Virus record (IMG/VR): IMGVR_UViG_3300024333_000030
Location: 1-21,819 of that record
DNA from: a virus
DNA length: 21,819 nucleotides
Strand: one strand, 5' to 3'
Part shown: one piece after another, positions 2,706-17,757 of the stretch
How the letters are laid out: each line of letters starts with the position of its first letter
Numbering within the stretch: the stretch's first letter is position 1
The notes under the pieces: generated by a model
Seen by the model: only the letters and a program-made list of their open reading frames with translations
The model's database searches: none
What the model was told of the DNA's origin: nothing
Program-made: the position numbers and the translations under genes

Positions 2706-3272
2706 CTATCGAATTGTTTGAATCATCAATCTTAATCGCTCTTCTCCATTCTTTCTTCCATTAATTTTCATTCTTCTTCTCCATTCCCTTTTTCTTTTCA
2801 CAACACAATCTACGCACCAACTATCGTAAAACCTTCTTCTAATTTCAGACTTTGGATTATTAAGTCTAAAACAAAACTTGGACAATGGTTTAACTTTTCC
2901 ACATAGACTGCATGGTTTTTTATTCTTCCATTCAACAGCATGTTCGATACGATGTTTCCCATTAGTCATTACCTTTAAGTTTTCAATTCTATTATCTGTC
3001 TTGTTACCGTTTATATGATGTATATGTTCCGTTATCAATAACTTCCTACCCAAATGTTGTTCCATCACATATCTATGTTCCTTAACAGACTTACCTTGTA
3101 TCCGTATCTTTTTATATCCATATCCATCAACATAACCAGTCCCACGCTTTCTACTCTTTTCTGTTTCTGGAACTCCATTTCGTTTCCATACTTGATAATG
3201 TTTACTACAAAAACCTTTTGCTAAATGATCTCTTTCGCATCCATTTACAGAACATTTTCTAATTTCATTCAT
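2706..3272 (-). CDS. Free-standing HNH homing endonuclease with zinc-binding ends
   Basis: This 188-aa protein has a clear HNH_3-type nuclease core at about residues 66-111: EHRYVMEQHLG, then TEHIHHINGNKTDNRIENL, then KHRIEH. H85/H86, N94/N98 and H107 are candidate metal and catalytic residues. An N-terminal Cys/His cluster (C7, C12, C22, H25) and a C-terminal one (C121, C124, C153, C156) look zinc-binding. Such nucleases cut DNA site-specifically and spread into allelic sites. It sits alone between the fibre gene and the small membrane-protein genes, as expected for a free-standing homing gene. It ends in TAG. Its RBS and start codon are buried in a hairpin. Confidence 0.9.
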   Translation of the reverse strand: MNEIRKCSVNGCERDHLAKGFCSKHYQVWKRNGVPETEKSRKRGTGYVDGYGYKKIRIQGKSVKEHRYVMEQHLGRKLLITEHIHHINGNKTDNRIENLKVMTNGKHRIEHAVEWKNKKPCSLCGKVKPLSKFCFRLNNPKSEIRRRFYDSWCVDCVVKRKREWRRRMKINGRKNGEERLRLMIQTIR

Positions 3273-3333: not shown

Positions 3334-6300
3334 TCAGTTGCTCGATCTGGAAACTTCATACCAATCTGAATCTCCAGAATCCCACGCAAGCGTAAGGGTG
3401 TCTCCCTTACCAAGCGTCATGCTAACGCCACCAGAAAGTTGAATGTTAGTATTGTCTGCGAAGGTAACCGTGTTAGTATCATTGGTTCCTTGAATAATAA
3501 GGAACTGACCATCATCCTGACCATTCGCAACTGAAGGACTCGTATCCAAGACAACCGCTCCACCACTTCCAACAACACGCATAATTGCTTTAGTAGGAGT
3601 CATTGTTGCGTCATTAGCTAACGATGTATCACCAGAAGGATTGAATGCCTGTTGGCCTCCATTGTAAATATCTCCGGCTTGTCCATAGAACGAGTAGTTT
3701 ATTACATCGCTACCTGTTGCGTTACCCAAAACGCCGACATTCCATCCACCAGAATGGGCTGTTATGGCTTGACCTTCAACACCTATTGAAGAATCAGTAT
3801 CAGTAGAAAGTCCGGGCCTTGCAAAACCAGCCACTCCTATTGCAGATGTATCTGCGTCTCCCTTTGCGCTACCAACTATGGCCATGGTATCTTTATCTGA
3901 GTTCGCAACAGCTTCAACAACCAAGCCAATCTCATTGCCTGTAAGTGTTTGAGTTGCTTCACCTTCGGATATGCCTACAAAGAAACTACCCCAATCTGCC
4001 GCAACAAAAGTAGAACCAATGACAACTTCATCCTCGTTATAAATTTGTCCTTCTGTCCCGTAGAACGAATAATTGGTAGCTCCGCCAGAAGCATCTCCCC
4101 AAACTGCTGCGTTCCTTCCACCTACATGCGTGGCAGTTGACAAACCCTTAAGTCCTATAGCGTCCGCATTGTCTGCGGTGTTATCTACAAGAGCAACGCC
4201 TCTTACTCCAACGCCATCTTTGCCTGCTAGGGTCTGACCGATACCATGAATACCAACACCTTCTATTACCCCTCCAGCCTTCGCTTCTCCAACAACACCG
4301 ATATTATCTACAGAGGTCTGCGCAGTATTAGCGGTTGAGAAGAAAGCCTCTGCCGCAGCAAAGTCTGCAAAGTTAGCCGCAGAACCTGCGGCAACTTTCT
4401 CTAGATTGAATAAATTTCCAAGAAGCCCATAGAACGAATAATCTTCATCTCCACCAGAAGCAGTAGAAAAAACTCCTATATTATCTCCAGCAGAATGTGA
4501 CGACGTGGCATTAGCGACAACTCCGTAAGCGGTACCGCTATCCGACGCACCTGTTTGAACCGTTGCCGTACCAGCTATACCAACTGCAAATTTATTGTCT
4601 GTGACTCTTGCAAACCCACGCACTCCGTAAGCATTGTATGTTCCATCGGCTTCTGCTTCAGCTACAATGGCAATATTGGAAGCGGTATCTGTAACTCCCG
4701 TGTTGTCCATGCTAAAAATAGAAAACGCTTCTGGGAAATCAACAAGGCTGGCATCGACTCCTTCTATAAAACCACCTTCCGCAGTCATAAAGCCAATTTT
4801 TTCAGAAGCCTCAAAATCAAATTCCCACTTATCTCCTACGGTATAAACAGTCCCCATTGGATTGTCTTGATAATTTGTAACGTAAACTATAACCCCATTG
4901 TTTAAATTATAAGGGCCAACAACAGATGCGGCTATTAAGTCAATGCCTGAATCTTCCCATGTAGCACCATTATCATCAGACCATCTAAATGTAGGATTTG
5001 GAGAACCAGCATCTATTTCAATTACATACTGAGTAGGAGCCACTCCAGTATAAACGTTTTCAACAATAGAAATAGTAGATTCAACGCTGTCTGTTACTGA
5101 AACATCTATTCCGGTAACACCAAACCCAACAATAGGGCCATTATAAAATTCTAATAAATCAGATTCATAAAGAAGCTTGAAAGTATTCCCGATTTTTATC
5201 GCCTCAGCCCCAGCTGAATCTGGAGTATGCCCCTGTATTTTAAGGTCATCTATAAAGGCTTCGAGCATGTCTGCCTTTATATAATCATCGCTCATCGCAA
5301 ATGAAGGATTTGAACCATGTGTAAACGACCATTCACTTTCGCCTCCAACATCAGGGTCTAAAAACATATCCCATGTCTGATCTGAGTTGAACGTTACAGC
5401 TCCATTAGTAGATGTCCCATCTGGTATCCTAATCTGGTCACCAAACCTAGTTTTTCCTTCATTAACAATACCAAACGCATTAGTAATGGTGGCTCCCGTG
5501 CTTGCAATCGGGTCGTCTTTAATATAAACTGTCGAAGCTTCTGTGATAGTCCCGCCACCACCAGCGATCCTATAAGTAGGAGCATCAATATACATATTGT
5601 GCTGGGCTGCAATATTACCTTCGAGCCACTCTTTAGTCCCTGAATCAAACCAGAATTCTGGACTTATCAACGTGGCCGCTATCCCGTCCATCGTCCCACC
5701 ATACAAGTATAGAACTTGTGGGGCCGAGCTTCCAGTGGTGTTATCCTGTATAACTCTAATGCCTCCGTGGTTGATGATGCCAAACCTGTTATCATAAACT
5801 GGAGAACCAGCAACAACACTCAAAGTATCAACAACTCTAAACAAATATCCCTCATCCCAATCCGTGGTCGGGCCAATTATAAAAGCATCTTTACCGGCAC
5901 CACTTGTGGCTGCGTTATAAATATAAGTACCATCAGAATCATCTGGATATATTGAAGTGTGCCATGAATAACTACCAAGTGAATTAAGGTATATGTCAAC
6001 TGAACCGTTATTAGCTACACCGAACGGAGTTCCTACTCCAAGATTTATATATCCTCCGTTATTGGCTCCCGCTGGTCCTACACCATAACTAGCATTAATC
6101 ATAATATCGTTACCAGCAGAAGAACCAGCCGCATCCGGTGCATCTATCTCTCCACCGCCATCTACACCATTGGGAGAGAAATGAAAGAAGTTGGTTCCAT
6201 CTACCCGCATATCCACCTTACCCTCATCACCAGCACCGCTTTCATCACCGGCATTTAATATTATATCTCCGCCGTCAGTATCACCAGTACCACCTGAAGC

Positions 6301-12664: not shown

Positions 12665-14937
12665 TGATTACCTCCCTGGGGTTGAGGCCGACCTTGGGGT
12701 GCCGGTCTCGGTTGCGGTTGTGGCGGTTGGGGTTGTTCTTGCTCCGGCGCTTCCTGCCCTTCATTCAAACCAAGCGTCGGACTCTGATTGTTACCGTACG
12801 GATTCTGTACATTGCTCGGCTGCTGCATCATCTCAAAATATCTGGTGTGTTCTTTGATAGCTTGTTTCAATTTCTCCATAGCGTTAGGAGCTACCTTGCC
12901 ATATTGAACTTCTAACTTAGCTTGATCAGGATCTATGGATTCATATACTTCGATCTTACTCTCATGCTCTGGATCGTTCGGAGCTATCGGAGGCATCTGA
13001 CCCTGCATTATCATTGCCAACTCCATATCAATCGGAAGCGCCCTGGCCTCTGTAGGCTTCTTAATGAAACGTTCAGGATTCAATGTCCCTATGCTTCTAT
13101 GGAACTCTTCCATTATATTATAAACCTCGTTCGGCACTACAATGCCAAGCTCTATCGGCAACTTCTGGAAACTAAATTGCGCCACCGCCGCAGCGTTCTC
13201 CTTGATCACATCTCTATTAATGTTCAAAGAGTTTGCATAAATACCAAAATGTACCTTTGTGGAAAGCTCACTTAACGTAATATCTTCCTTCATTAAATTG
13301 CCCTCTTCATCAACAAGTGGAGTTCCATCCATACCCGTCACCGTCAACTTCTGAACCTCCGGCATCCTGTCAAGACAATCAAGATATAACCCCTCAAATA
13401 GATCAGATATGCAGATCTTCACCCTCTTAATTATAGGATCCATTATCATGGAAGCATTCCTGTCCAAAGCGTTCACACCACTCGTAGAACGCAACGCCCC
13501 AACCCTGGCGCCTACCTGCCCCATCTGGCTCGGCCCCATCCCAGTCAACTGCTGAGCCATTGATATTAAACTGCTCTGTATCCCTGACGACCAATTAGGA
13601 TTAACGTTCCATGTGAAAAACCTTATGTCACTGTTAGGATCGTCACACTTAATGCCAAGACCAGGACCTATCTTAACCTCTCCAGGATCAAATGTGCTGT
13701 CACCCTTATATCCAAACATCGGATTGTTCGCTAACATGCCGGCATCTATCGACTGGTTAAGCAGTATATCTAAACCATCGTTAATAGAAAACATCGTGTG
13801 CGTTATACCTCTCCCTATACTGCACCTCGGCCTCCTGTATAAATGCGCCATGTGCAACGGTATCTTACCGTTTGAACTAACTCTGTCCAAATATGTCCAC
13901 CTCGCTAAACTCTTCGTGTCTACATGAACATAATACTGTAACCTGTCCGCTAACTCCTTGTTCTTATCCTTAGGATCTAAATTCGTAGTATCGTAAACAC
14001 AAAGAAATTCCCAAACACCACTGCTCGCAGAAGATGATTCAACGTTAACACCAGTCTGACGCTGCTCAACTCTTCTCCGATCACTGTCCAACCTCTGCCC
14101 ACCTATCTTCAATGGAGGAGTTTCTAAAATCTTGTCCACAACCTCTTCATCCATCCATTCACTATCTTTAAAAGATATAAGTTCGTTCTGATTAAAATAA
14201 CATACCTTGATAACAGTTTCATGCCTGTTCAGATCAGTACAATCAACAACATCACCCTGAAATAAAATAAATACAGGATTCTCCGCAGTAATGGTAGGCC
14301 CGTTGAAAACTGTTCTTATTATAGACTTCTCAACGTATGGCATATTAATAAACTCGTTAGCCAATATTCCAAAATCTTTCTCTTCAGTGTCATCTAACAT
14401 CTTCTGCAAATTTAATCGCTGAGATTTGAAATCATCATTCTTCTCTATAGTGTAAAACCTTCTCTGTATAACATCCCAACCCCTGCTAAATATGGCCATA
14501 CCCTCACCACAAAGATCGTTAGCCCAATCATCTACTGTTAAATAAATACCGTTGTGATAATTTACATACCGCTCCAATACATATTTCAAAAACCTCTCTA
14601 TCTTCTTGATACGATACATGTCTATATCTTCCTGAGGATCTACATAGAACCACGGATATTGAAAAAATATAGCCTGCATGATCATGGCGTGCATCGCATT
14701 CTTCTGGATCTCCGTTAACGGAAAATGAAAATTAGCACTGCCTTCCCATAAACCCTTGAACGGAGAAGAAAGATAATCTTCACTGGAAAGATAGAACTGC
14801 TCCCTCCTCTTCATCCACTCACTTCTGTCATTCTCAAATTGCCCAAACTTCTCTATTGCCCTATTGACAAGATGTTGCGCATCAATAGTTTTTTTCGGGA
14901 TCCTGAATATAGGATCCACTGGCATTACTTTCCTCAT
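12661..14937 (-). CDS. Portal protein
   Basis: This 758-aa protein has the typical portal layout. A helical N-terminal wing is followed by a core with IPLHMAHLYRRPRCSIGRG and FSINDGLDILLNQSIDAGM. Then come NPMFGYKGD, DPGEVKIGPGLGIKCDDPN, a clip/stem segment LISMAQQLTGMGPSQMGQ and SGVNALDRNASMIMDPIIKRV. The C-terminal 40 residues are Pro/Gln-rich (QPQPPQPQPRPAPQGRPQ) and probably disordered. The dodecameric ring would form the DNA entry vertex. It starts in an ATGA overlap with terL and has an AGGGAG RBS. The length is like large P22-type portals. Confidence 0.88.
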   Translation of the reverse strand: MRKVMPVDPIFRIPKKTIDAQHLVNRAIEKFGQFENDRSEWMKRREQFYLSSEDYLSSPFKGLWEGSANFHFPLTEIQKNAMHAMIMQAIFFQYPWFYVDPQEDIDMYRIKKIERFLKYVLERYVNYHNGIYLTVDDWANDLCGEGMAIFSRGWDVIQRRFYTIEKNDDFKSQRLNLQKMLDDTEEKDFGILANEFINMPYVEKSIIRTVFNGPTITAENPVFILFQGDVVDCTDLNRHETVIKVCYFNQNELISFKDSEWMDEEVVDKILETPPLKIGGQRLDSDRRRVEQRQTGVNVESSSASSGVWEFLCVYDTTNLDPKDKNKELADRLQYYVHVDTKSLARWTYLDRVSSNGKIPLHMAHLYRRPRCSIGRGITHTMFSINDGLDILLNQSIDAGMLANNPMFGYKGDSTFDPGEVKIGPGLGIKCDDPNSDIRFFTWNVNPNWSSGIQSSLISMAQQLTGMGPSQMGQVGARVGALRSTSGVNALDRNASMIMDPIIKRVKICISDLFEGLYLDCLDRMPEVQKLTVTGMDGTPLVDEEGNLMKEDITLSELSTKVHFGIYANSLNINRDVIKENAAAVAQFSFQKLPIELGIVVPNEVYNIMEEFHRSIGTLNPERFIKKPTEARALPIDMELAMIMQGQMPPIAPNDPEHESKIEVYESIDPDQAKLEVQYGKVAPNAMEKLKQAIKEHTRYFEMMQQPSNVQNPYGNNQSPTLGLNEGQEAPEQEQPQPPQPQPRPAPQGRPQPQGGNQ

Positions 14938-17309
14938 AACTGTATCTCCCTTCTATATGCACCATTGTAAGTGCGGGTTATAAAATTTTGCTCGCCAGGC
15001 GTTATAAACTTCGGAGCTATCGACTCTATATACCTACTGCAATCTATGCGTTCGTTATACTTCGGTATCGGCCTCACCTCCGATGAAGAAATGTTCTCCG
15101 GCCACTGATAATGCAATAACTCATATCTATACTTTGGAACCGAATGACGAAATAAATATTCAGTCGGCATCACCCTGTCACTTTCAGAAGCCTGCACTAT
15201 CGGCTTGAAAAGATCCCGTAACTTCTTAATGCCAGGTAACAACCAACCCTTCTTAACTGCCATTACCGGCATAACCACCTCCCCAGCATCACGAAGAGAA
15301 CGATTTAACTCGTCACGCATGTTTATCTTGAACTGCCAATCCTCCACGTTCACCGATGTGTCACTTACACTCTTTATCAACGTCGCACCACCAGCAGTTA
15401 AACGCCTTCGCACCTTCGCTAACTCTTGGCCAAAATCATAGATACCACCATCAAAATCCAACTCCGCACATGAATAACGAAAATTGTTCCTGTCCAACGC
15501 CTTCCATAACGCAGCGTTAGGCTTACTCTCATGCGGATCTAAACCTTCAAAAATAACAAAATCTGAAGTTAACTCAAATTCATCTATATCAGAAAACTCG
15601 GGACGATAACTGTCGATCACCACTCCCTGTAACTTCTTAAACAAACCTTCAATACGAACTTCCCTCTCCTGCGGAGTACATTCAGCTGCTAAAATGTCCA
15701 ACGTCTTTTTGTTGACATATGGATTGTCGTAAGATGACCAGTTAAAACAATCTATGTATTCCTTCTGACCATGCACGCCAGGCAACCATAACTCGTCATA
15801 GATCCACGCCTCTCGCAACGGCGTCATACTAAACCACATTAAACCACCACGATCTACTATACTTCGTAAATTCGCTATGTAAATGTTGCGCGGCGGCGGC
15901 TCGTCGAAACATACGAAATCAGCGTCACCACCCTCTGCGGTACCAGCCTCCTGCTGATACGCTCCAAACGTGATACGGCTGCCATTGGCAAAGTTTATCC
16001 CGGAAAGGTATCCCTGCGCACTCTTCATGTACGGTTTCGCAGAATCCAATGCGCTCTTCGGCAACCACTTCTCAAACTTTGGACCAAATGTTTCCAAAGT
16101 CACTATCGGAAACGTGTCGCCGTAAAGCTTCCCCTTATTCGGAACCGGAATCTTGTGATATGGATGTATGCCAAGCGACAACCAAATAGCTTCGATCGTG
16201 CTAGCTTCTGATTTGCCCGAATTCGAATGTATTATACCATCAGATGTTACATAGTTATGAACGTTCTCAACCGTCATATCCCAATACCATTCTTCTTTTG
16301 TCAACTTTTCTATTGATTTAATTCTGGAAATAGTATAGGAACTATTGTATGACGATACACAAAGAACCTTACATTGGCTGGAAGAATCAAATAATTCAAC
16401 TTTCCCATCCTGAATTAAGCTCCAAAGAAATTGCAGAGAAGATCCATTGCCCTCATAAATACGTTGAAGCAATCCGTAAAAAGCTCGATCTTCCAAGGCA
16501 GTTAAGAACTGGCCCAAAAAGAGGCGTACATCATCCTCAATTTCAAACAGGCTTTTCCATTGACAAGGATGGCTATGTTTTAATTTCTGTATCCCCTCAA
16601 TTCCAACAAGCAAGAAAATCACACAATAGACAAACGAAACGAATGTTATTGCATCGTTATATCGTTTCAAAAATAATCGGTAGGCCTCTAACAAAAATGG
16701 AAGTTGTCGATCATATAAATAATTGCAAACTCGATAACCACCCACGCAACCTTCGCCTGTTCCCCTCAAATGCAACTCATTTGAAAAATACGATCTCTGG
16801 CCAAGTGCCGAAATGGAGTCGTGCGGGCAAACAAAACATAAATCGCCACATTGAAGATCACGAACGTATTCATACTTACCTTGAACAGAAAAGATCCGGT
16901 GCCGTCCGTCAGCGACAAATTCTCCAGCTTCGTGAACTACGCGATATTGATGAGAACGTCCCTTTGCAAATGGATATATTGCTCGATTCCAAACAAATTG
17001 ATTGGATCTTTGATCAAAACTTAAAACCTCCTCACACATTCCTGCAATATCACCAATCGCTTTTAAACCATTCTTTGTAATTATTTTTTGATCTTCCCGC
17101 AAACAACGATTCCCCGCTACCAATAATCGTATTTGCTTCGAAGATTTGTGAAAGCCTATTTGCCCGGTCTTAGTAGATTCGTCAAAACCACCGCGACCAT
17201 CGTGCGGACGATACAAACCAAGCTTGTTGTTCTCGTAAGCTTGCAATTGCTCGTCAAGCATCTTGATCGTTTCGATCAAATCAGCTTTGCTCTGCGTCGC
17301 TGGATTCAA
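14934..17309 (-). CDS. terL: Terminase large subunit interrupted by an intein
   Basis: This 791-aa precursor becomes about 496 aa after splicing. The packaging motor ATPase has Walker A split by the intein (VAGNR at 64-68, SGKSE at 364-368). Walker B is FVCFDE (about 465-470), and the coupling motif is SMTP (about 494-497). A C-terminal RNase H-like nuclease domain includes FEGLDPHESKPNAALW (about 588-602; D591 a likely metal ligand). It starts with TTG at 17309, preceded by GAGGAA inside terS, with which it overlaps 29 nt. An in-frame ATG at codon 18 is the alternative but lacks a good RBS. Function depends on protein splicing. Confidence 0.9.
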   Translation of the reverse strand: MNPATQSKADLIETIKMLDEQLQAYENNKLGLYRPHDGRGGFDESTKTGQIGFHKSSKQIRLLVAGNRCLREDQKIITKNGLKAIGDIAGMCEEVLSFDQRSNQFVWNRAIYPFAKGRSHQYRVVHEAGEFVADGRHRIFSVQGKYEYVRDLQCGDLCFVCPHDSISALGQRSYFSNELHLRGTGEGCVGGYRVCNYLYDRQLPFLLEAYRLFLKRYNDAITFVSFVYCVIFLLVGIEGIQKLKHSHPCQWKSLFEIEDDVRLFLGQFLTALEDRAFYGLLQRIYEGNGSSLQFLWSLIQDGKVELFDSSSQCKVLCVSSYNSSYTISRIKSIEKLTKEEWYWDMTVENVHNYVTSDGIIHSNSGKSEASTIEAIWLSLGIHPYHKIPVPNKGKLYGDTFPIVTLETFGPKFEKWLPKSALDSAKPYMKSAQGYLSGINFANGSRITFGAYQQEAGTAEGGDADFVCFDEPPPRNIYIANLRSIVDRGGLMWFSMTPLREAWIYDELWLPGVHGQKEYIDCFNWSSYDNPYVNKKTLDILAAECTPQEREVRIEGLFKKLQGVVIDSYRPEFSDIDEFELTSDFVIFEGLDPHESKPNAALWKALDRNNFRYSCAELDFDGGIYDFGQELAKVRRRLTAGGATLIKSVSDTSVNVEDWQFKINMRDELNRSLRDAGEVVMPVMAVKKGWLLPGIKKLRDLFKPIVQASESDRVMPTEYLFRHSVPKYRYELLHYQWPENISSSEVRPIPKYNERIDCSRYIESIAPKFITPGEQNFITRTYNGAYRREIQL
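16221..17105 (-). mobile_element. Intein in TerL Walker A, 295 aa, Cys1...Asn / Ser+1
   Basis: The insert runs from C69 to N363 of the precursor. Block A is CLREDQKIITKNGLKAIGDI. Block B is near FVADGRHRIFSV (intein 63-74), with the H of the DGRH motif. Blocks F/G are WDMTVENVHNYVTSDGIIHSN (275-295), followed by Ser+1. Removing it restores AGNRSGKSE exactly. No LAGLIDADG or HNH motif occurs in this frame. The centre (about intein 100-250) is hydrophobic and compositionally odd because the opposite strand encodes an HNH nuclease. The penultimate residue is Ser (IIHSN) instead of the usual His, so splicing chemistry may be slow or helped by another residue. Confidence 0.88.
16349..17080 (+). 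CDS. HNH homing endonuclease encoded antisense within the terL intein
   Basis: This 243-aa protein lies on the plus strand, wholly inside the intein DNA on the minus strand. Its N-terminal segment has a helix-turn-helix-like pattern (LSSKEIAEKIHCPHKYVEAI, about 23-42). The HNH_3 core is at about 101-147: LHRYIVSKIIGRPL, EVVDHINNCKLDNHPRNLRL and NATHLKN. H102, D121/H122, N130, N134 and H144 are candidate key residues. AGGA lies 8 nt before the ATG. The C-terminal hundred residues are antisense to intein N-terminal blocks. Presumably it cuts intein-less terL at the Walker A codons, driving intein homing. The opposite-strand placement is highly unusual. Confidence 0.85.
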   Translation: MTIHKEPYIGWKNQIIQLSHPELSSKEIAEKIHCPHKYVEAIRKKLDLPRQLRTGPKRGVHHPQFQTGFSIDKDGYVLISVSPQFQQARKSHNRQTKRMLLHRYIVSKIIGRPLTKMEVVDHINNCKLDNHPRNLRLFPSNATHLKNTISGQVPKWSRAGKQNINRHIEDHERIHTYLEQKRSGAVRQRQILQLRELRDIDENVPLQMDILLDSKQIDWIFDQNLKPPHTFLQYHQSLLNHSL

Positions 17310-17757
17310 TTACAGGTTCCTCAACTATTTCAGCGTCCACCGCCGGCGGCGCCAAAGTTAAACCCGGCGCCAAACGCTGTAACTTCTCTATCCTAGACTG
17401 CAATATAGCCGACAACTGATCCACTTCCATCTTCTCATATACTACATTGTGCTCCACCTTCTGGATGGGTCCATGACCAGCCTGCGATAAAATATACTTC
17501 GCAGCGTCCAACCTCGTGGCGTCCGAAGGCGAATTCTGCATAATATCAATTACATTGTACTCAGCTAACGGCGCCGCATCCAACTTCATCTTGGCTATGT
17601 TCTTGTCCTTAAGCGCCCTCAATGCGCTAGATCGCCAATCATACGGCGTTGCACTGTCAAATGATAACTCCGATATATCTTCCCACTCGCTTAACACCTC
17701 AGATATACTCGTCTTTTTAGCAGATGATAATCCCATTGGTGGTGTGGGATATAACAT
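17281..17757 (-). CDS. terS: Terminase small subunit
   Basis: This 158-aa, mostly helical acidic protein directly precedes and overlaps terL. The central region (RSSALRALKDKNIAKMKLDA, then DAAKYILSQAGHGPIQKVEHNVVYEKM) and the Glu-rich tail (AEIVEEPVIESSDAEQS) fit the terminase small subunits that recognise packaging sites and load DNA onto TerL. The first ATG (17757) has no Shine-Dalgarno, only a T-run. A second ATG at codon 8 (17736) also lacks one, so the start is uncertain. A C-rich/G-rich tract and a promoter-like site lie upstream. Subunit identity rests on position and general character. Confidence 0.78.
   Translation of the reverse strand: MLYPTPPMGLSSAKKTSISEVLSEWEDISELSFDSATPYDWRSSALRALKDKNIAKMKLDAAPLAEYNVIDIMQNSPSDATRLDAAKYILSQAGHGPIQKVEHNVVYEKMEVDQLSAILQSRIEKLQRLAPGLTLAPPAVDAEIVEEPVIESSDAEQS

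Follow-up and report, generated by a model that had tools for sequence, protein, structure and literature searches.

Putative inteins in phage P-loop ATPases with a separate HNH endonuclease gene on the opposite strand

Introduction

The homing nuclease of an intein is usually regarded as an in-frame fusion with it. In such bifunctional inteins, with an in-frame LAGLIDADG or HNH nuclease, the splicing domain is split around a central region, the insertion lies at the site of a conserved catalytic motif, and the nuclease gene is internal. The element described here has all of these properties but differs in that its nuclease is a separate protein read from the opposite strand, and its sense centre contains neither a nuclease motif nor a predicted fold. 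To our knowledge, I-HmuI-type HNH homing endonucleases are encoded by introns in the sense orientation, without antisense overlap with a splicing protein. They share with the present nuclease an HNH core and have a nearby fold (PDB 1u3e).

Antisense homing endonuclease genes have been described in group I introns, namely those of Didymium I-DsqI and Dir.S956-2, which likewise are self-splicing elements with an endonuclease gene on the opposite strand (PMC9548176). However, those elements are RNA introns of rDNA with no second protein frame opposite the nuclease, and their enzymes are of the His-Cys box type (PMC9548176). The ShiLan domain and Pacc40 are insertions in phage methylases that lack a splicing domain and hold a same-strand, out-of-frame HNH gene (Arsenault, Gosselin, Gogarten 2025, PMC11855218). 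Like the present element, they are insertions in a phage gene that are read in frame with an HNH protein in another frame; here, in contrast, it is an intein that is made in frame, and the HNH gene lies on the other strand. Large terminases of phages are known to hold inteins in the case of mycobacteriophage TerL (Kelley et al. 2016, PMC5050341), and a text search of that paper gave no mention of an antisense nuclease. None of the inteins described in the open-access papers that were searched has an antisense endonuclease, a scope that excludes a 2025 preprint on non-canonical actinobacteriophage inteins (10.1101/2025.01.02.630785). As far as found, the working parts (an intein and an HNH homing endonuclease) are known and the coding arrangement is new.

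Results and discussion

The interrupted terminase gene

The window is the whole stretch of viral DNA that was analysed, 21,819 nucleotides of IMG/VR record IMGVR_UViG_3300024333_000030. Its interrupted large terminase gene (terL) and the gene on the opposite strand have the following features.

14934..17309, minus strand: terL, large terminase, interrupted by an intein; Terminase_6N and phrog_2 matches; portal and small-terminase genes adjoin
17106-17309, minus strand: terL N-extein; TTG start uncertain
16221..17105, minus strand: intein, 295 aa, within the terL Walker A motif; PF14890 match and, by fold, PDB mini-inteins
16830..17105, minus strand: intein N-terminal splicing domain, residues 1-92; AlphaFold (AF2) pLDDT ~88-96; invariant Cys1, T10 and His69
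16335..16829, minus strand: intein sense centre, residues 93-257; linker that is read through, with no fold predicted; the HNH core and helix-turn-helix (HTH) lie opposite
16221..16334, minus strand: intein C-terminal splicing domain, residues 258-295; pLDDT 78-97; ends in HSN (HHN in relatives)
14937-16220, minus strand: terL C-extein
16337..16340, plus strand: Shine-Dalgarno (SD)-like AGGA, 8 nt upstream of the HNH ATG; such motifs are enriched family-wide
16349..17080, plus strand: HNH endonuclease gene, 243 aa, ATG start, entirely within the intein; supported by phrog_10730, PF13392 and the family alignment
16364..16483, plus strand: HNH N-terminal helix-turn-helix, residues 6-45; AF2 helices, and HTH-type chains in Foldseek
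16652..16792, plus strand: HNH catalytic core, residues 102-148, facing intein residues ~105-152; family-invariant residues and I-HmuI match
16829..17077, plus strand: HNH C-terminal region, residues 161-243; doubly constrained, antisense to the intein N-terminal splicing domain

The terL frame is open across 14934-17309, with the intein's Cys1 codon at 17105 and Asn295 at 16221. The junctions (marked by slashes) read AGNR/CLRED...GIIHSN/SGKSEAS and split the Walker A motif. On the plus strand, the ORF matches HNH_3 (PF13392) at 1.3e-5, above the cut-off, and phrog_10730 at 2.4e-24; a sequence search of the PDB with the HNH protein gave no match. AF2 places helices at residues 6-18, 25-32 and 36-45 with pLDDT 95-97, and in the family alignments used H102, D121, H122, N130, N134 and H144 are invariant. 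Foldseek pairs the HNH model with I-HmuI at a probability of 0.89 but with E=0.31, a weak match. No promoter for the HNH gene scored above shuffled background within the window.

The two frames are in a phase that sets HNH codon position 1 opposite intein position 1, HNH position 2 opposite intein position 3, and HNH position 3 opposite intein position 2. HNH residues 161-243 thereby lie opposite intein residues 9-92, and the HNH core lies opposite the sense centre. A preliminary description of this DNA had proposed a 295-aa minus-strand intein in terL at 16221-17105 and a 243-aa plus-strand HNH protein at 16349-17080, with HNH second positions facing intein third positions and the nuclease C-terminal part antisense to intein blocks A/B. 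Its intein coordinates proved exact, with Pfam and fold support; the HNH protein is borne out by both profile matches, and the phase and the facing segments are as it claimed.

A family of antisense elements

Scans of IMG/VR with single sequences returned no match for the window HNH protein and one locus for the window intein, and alignment queries were needed. The first such scan was seeded with the window HNH protein and three relatives; in the best 80 of 217 loci, which were those examined, an antisense intein surrounded the HNH gene in 80/80. A GTDB scan gave the antisense pair in five of six loci, an intein-seeded scan yielded 79 new loci with an antisense HNH gene in each (79/79), and a further scan, for which a divergent HNH protein headed the query, added 73 new loci, again with the pair in all (73/73). 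Because the HNH-seeded scans carried no intein condition, the association was not built in. After removal of duplicates, IMG/VR, GTDB and phage records together gave 153 distinct elements, and in 153/153 the intein lies opposite the HNH gene in one and the same phase.

Named carriers include Pseudoalteromonas phage PHS3, eight Pectobacterium and Dickeya phages, and prophages of Enterobacter cloacae and E. coli. The usual insertion site is the Walker A motif of large terminases that differ widely from one another; some elements lie in other P-loop ATPases. In the deeper group of the family, hosts interrupted at the same motif include an AAA_30/UvrD_C_2 protein (L177), SNF2-type helicases (L186, L188) and a strawberry-notch-type helicase (L241); some deeper-group host proteins have no Pfam match. 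In the RefSeq annotation of E. coli MEI003 (L172:2601-3596 and 3584-4888), the antisense HNH has a gene entry of its own and terL is listed as an incomplete pseudogene that lacks its N-terminus. The terminase is called incomplete because the intein is unrecognised, and the layout described here explains this misannotation.

Mobility of the element

No close empty allele was found for the window terL; the search gave one identical truncated contig in IMG/VR, and phage matches reached only ~26-31% identity. The clean insertion is therefore documented on relatives. Comparison of the terL of an E. cloacae prophage (L087) with the uninterrupted terL of Escherichia phage PHB10, which is ~92% identical, resolves an exact 1008-bp insertion. 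Across the insertion point, filled L087 reads GCCGGGTTCGGT/AGTGGTAAAACG and empty PHB10 reads GCCGGGTTCGGT/TCCGGTAAGACG. The terL of E. coli ET729 is a second empty allele, and at the junction L087 has GGT, the 1008 bp and AGTGGTAAAACG, as compared with GGT/TCCGGTAA in PHB10 and ET729. Serine at +1 is encoded by TCC in the empty alleles (L171, L173) and by AGT in filled L087, a possible mark of co-conversion.

Among 103 elements, median identity is 21% for the host terminases, 47% for the HNH proteins and 48% for the splicing domains. Identities of the HNH protein and the splicing domain show their strongest correlation with each other, at 0.78; the values with terL are 0.62 and 0.59. Some terminases that are 84% alike hold elements whose HNH proteins are just 55% alike. 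Trees of the HNH protein and the splicing domain have 37 of 100 splits in common, compared with 18-21 in common with terL; congruence is partial. As far as sequence comparison can tell, the spread over very different terminases fits horizontal movement.

Loss of the nuclease is also represented in the family. Relative to L018, to which it is otherwise 99.7% identical, L117 has an in-frame deletion of 261 bp (87 codons) that removes the 5' part of the HNH gene and breaks it while leaving the intein complete. Truncated HNH genes occur in at least two elements (L117, L165). Empty sites, horizontal spread and HNH loss are stages that a homing life cycle would be expected to include; a driving role of the HNH protein in it is inferred. 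Cleavage of the element-free allele and self-copying by way of the HNH protein are supported only indirectly, by the sporadic distribution, the horizontal spread and the empty sites.

We consider it highly probable that the locus forms a composite mobile element in which a class-1-type intein has the separate HNH protein of the opposite strand as its homing endonuclease, with splicing, expression, cleavage and homing all inferred. The terminase precursor would be translated straight across the antisense HNH region, and the intein would splice itself out and restore an active terminase. Antisense transcription would yield the HNH protein. Through its HTH and HNH core, this protein may recognise an uninterrupted Walker A site in a co-infecting phage or prophage and cut or nick it, and repair off the intein-bearing copy would install the element. 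The insertion sites that were read lie in Walker A motifs, which points to a target common to essential phage ATPases.

The HNH gene might instead be a harmless passenger inside the intein, with no role in moving it and perhaps with targets at other sites. Free-standing relatives lend this some plausibility. Beyond full-length relatives, phage records contained HNH-core matches only, and the four checked in context were ordinary free-standing genes; plasmid relatives were likewise core-only matches, and one free-standing HTH-HNH relative exists (L091). However, all 153 elements contain both parts in a single phase, full-length HNH relatives outside an intein were not found in phage records, and by tree and by identity the HNH and splicing domains resemble each other more than either resembles the host gene. 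That the host sites read are all Walker A motifs is what a shared target predicts. We regard the passenger explanation as unlikely and retain a homing role for the HNH protein as the preferred interpretation.

The splicing frame

An AF2 model of the window intein was built from an alignment of 49 family members, with phage-collection rows left out. Both splicing halves (residues 1-92 and 258-295) are modelled with confidence, and in 10-residue blocks the pLDDT of the centre is 36-67, for the most part 36-63. Solved mini-inteins with the HINT fold are the top Foldseek matches to this model (E 7e-5), and a profile search also matched solved PDB inteins by sequence. The match to Pfam Intein_splicing (PF14890), at 1.2e-7, falls slightly short of the curated cut-off. 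In the family alignment the intein residues Cys1, T10, block-B His69, H293 and Asn295 are invariant, and Ser, Thr or Cys occupies +1 across the elements; the intein criteria for position 1, block-B His, terminal Asn and +1 are fulfilled.

The penultimate block-G His, present as HHN in nearly all relatives, is absent from the window intein (HSN). Phage inteins without this His have already been described (PMC5050341), so its absence does not exclude an intein, but the HSN ending might slow splicing. We infer that the sense frame encodes a class-1-type intein that restores active terminase by self-excision; splicing has not been shown.

Reading the sense frame as intron read-through, or as a permanent insertion that the terminase tolerates, as has been proposed for the ShiLan domain, would accommodate a centre that has no fold, as in ShiLan (PMC11855218). 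It does not accommodate a full HINT-like splicing domain supported by profile and fold, the invariance of Cys1, His69 and Asn295 with Ser, Thr or Cys at +1, the lack of any Rfam match in 15900-17400, or a split Walker A motif that should leave unspliced terminase inactive, and we hold it to be very improbable. Three specific layouts were also rejected. A group I RNA intron with an antisense endonuclease gene found no Rfam match up to E=1 on either strand of 15900-17400; a canonical bifunctional intein with the endonuclease fused in frame is incompatible with an HNH gene on the opposite strand in 153/153 elements; and a ShiLan-type hidden HNH insertion conflicts with both the opposite strand and the presence of a splicing domain. 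The reading as an intein is retained in what follows.

Selection on both reading frames

Openness was assessed by shuffling synonymous codons of one frame and counting stops in the opposite frame. With the window HNH gene shuffled, 11.1 stops were expected in the intein frame, and with the intein shuffled, 6.8 were expected in the HNH frame; none is observed in either, and 0/1000 shuffles were open in each case. Averaged over the family, the shuffles predict 8.0 stops for the intein frame and 6.1 for the HNH frame, with none found, and individual elements reach P<0.05 in 56/56 and 55/56 cases for the intein-frame and HNH-frame shuffles, respectively. The intein-frame shuffle gave the same result in the deeper group (43/43).

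The window element has no close relative in the searched collections, and substitution data therefore come from relatives. Changes per codon at intein positions 1/2/3 were determined for 21 independent pairs of related elements. In the C-terminal splicing zone, where only the intein is encoded, they are.137/.071/.299. Across the centre they become.121/.322/.092, indicating that the HNH frame is constrained and the intein residue is free. Where the HNH C-terminus overlaps the N-terminal splicing domain they are.072/.098/.118, indicating that both are constrained. Within the centre, intein position 2 changes more than position 3 in 21/21 pairs; at the intein-only ends it is position 3 that changes more, again in 21/21. 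Read in the HNH frame, the centre has a slow position 2 and a fast position 3 in all 21 pairs. SD matches of at least 4 nt precede 75% of HNH starts, compared with 28% of internal control windows (p=1.4e-10).

Judged from these sequence data, both frames are held open by selection. Given the shuffles, position-specific rates, invariant residues and SD enrichment, it is very likely that the HNH gene is genuine and translated, although its expression has not been shown, and that the sense centre is a read-through linker. The proposal that the intein alone is functional, and that the plus-strand ORF is open by accident or is a decayed remnant, can point to a centre that varies freely in the intein frame and to the truncated HNH genes of L117 and L165, but it is scarcely credible for the window and refuted for the family by the slow second and fast third HNH positions across the centre, the invariant catalytic residues, the SD enrichment at HNH starts and the exclusion of chance openness by the shuffles.

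The preliminary description had taken the sense centre to be a by-product of the HNH core, kept open only for read-through, and this is supported by its low pLDDT, its freely changing residues and the loss of 87 codons in L117. It had also constrained both frames where the nuclease C-terminal part faces blocks A/B, and all codon positions are indeed slow there. The same description would have fallen had the plus-strand ORF no homologues as an HNH protein, had stop codons appeared in that frame in close relatives, or had selection acted on the intein frame alone. Many HNH homologues were found, neither frame has a stop within the overlap in any of the 153 distinct elements, and in the central zone it is the HNH frame, not the intein frame, that is under selection.

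Taken with the distribution of the family, these results make it probable, in our assessment, that P-loop ATPases of phages and prophages, namely large terminases and SNF2-type, RecD-like and strawberry-notch-type helicases, host a widespread and so far undescribed intein class that encodes a separate antisense homing endonuclease, and that in its main clade the HNH C-terminal region and the intein N-terminal splicing domain form a true antisense overlap with both products under purifying selection. One stretch of DNA would then specify a splicing protein on one strand and a nuclease on the other, in a phase that has stayed fixed through deep divergence. The family supplies many natural examples of protein coding with antisense overlap, a layout that has rarely been shown to be selected in both frames. 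It also offers a handle on intein-nuclease coupling, through elements in which the overlap lies mostly in a dispensable linker, reaches the splicing domain, or contains a broken nuclease gene.

The extent of overlap differs between groups. The HNH proteins of the deeper group are shorter; most of them stop 49-85 residues beyond the point where the EVVDH motif begins and lie opposite mainly the centre. In the main clade, which includes the window, the HNH protein extends ~110-139 residues past this point and overlaps the splicing domain. A plausible order is that a reversed HNH gene entered the intein centre and later gained a C-terminal extension into the splicing-domain coding sequence. With just one distant sequence to root the tree, this order is no more than a suggestion.

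Additional inteins and nuclease genes

The window contains a second HNH endonuclease gene at 2706-3272 on the minus strand (phrog_7545, 5.7e-17). In four elements with 358-aa inteins (L017, L027, L028, L030), the N-terminal HTH segment of the HNH protein is repeated and the sense centre is correspondingly longer. A 132-aa mini-intein without a nuclease frame occupies a second terminase insertion site, the nuclease site, in L026 (2157-2552).

Second terminase inteins of 310-331 aa were also detected at the nuclease site (SD[LVI]/CF...N/CD or similar) in L097:2336-3289, L104:4371-5345, L110:2055-3047 and L165:5708-6637. In each of these, another frame of the same strand codes for an HNH protein of 214-258 aa that bears zinc-ribbon motifs, and the two such proteins tested match phrog_15471 (E ~1e-27 to 1e-29). 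Shuffles suggest that these same-strand pairs are likewise under selection in both frames.
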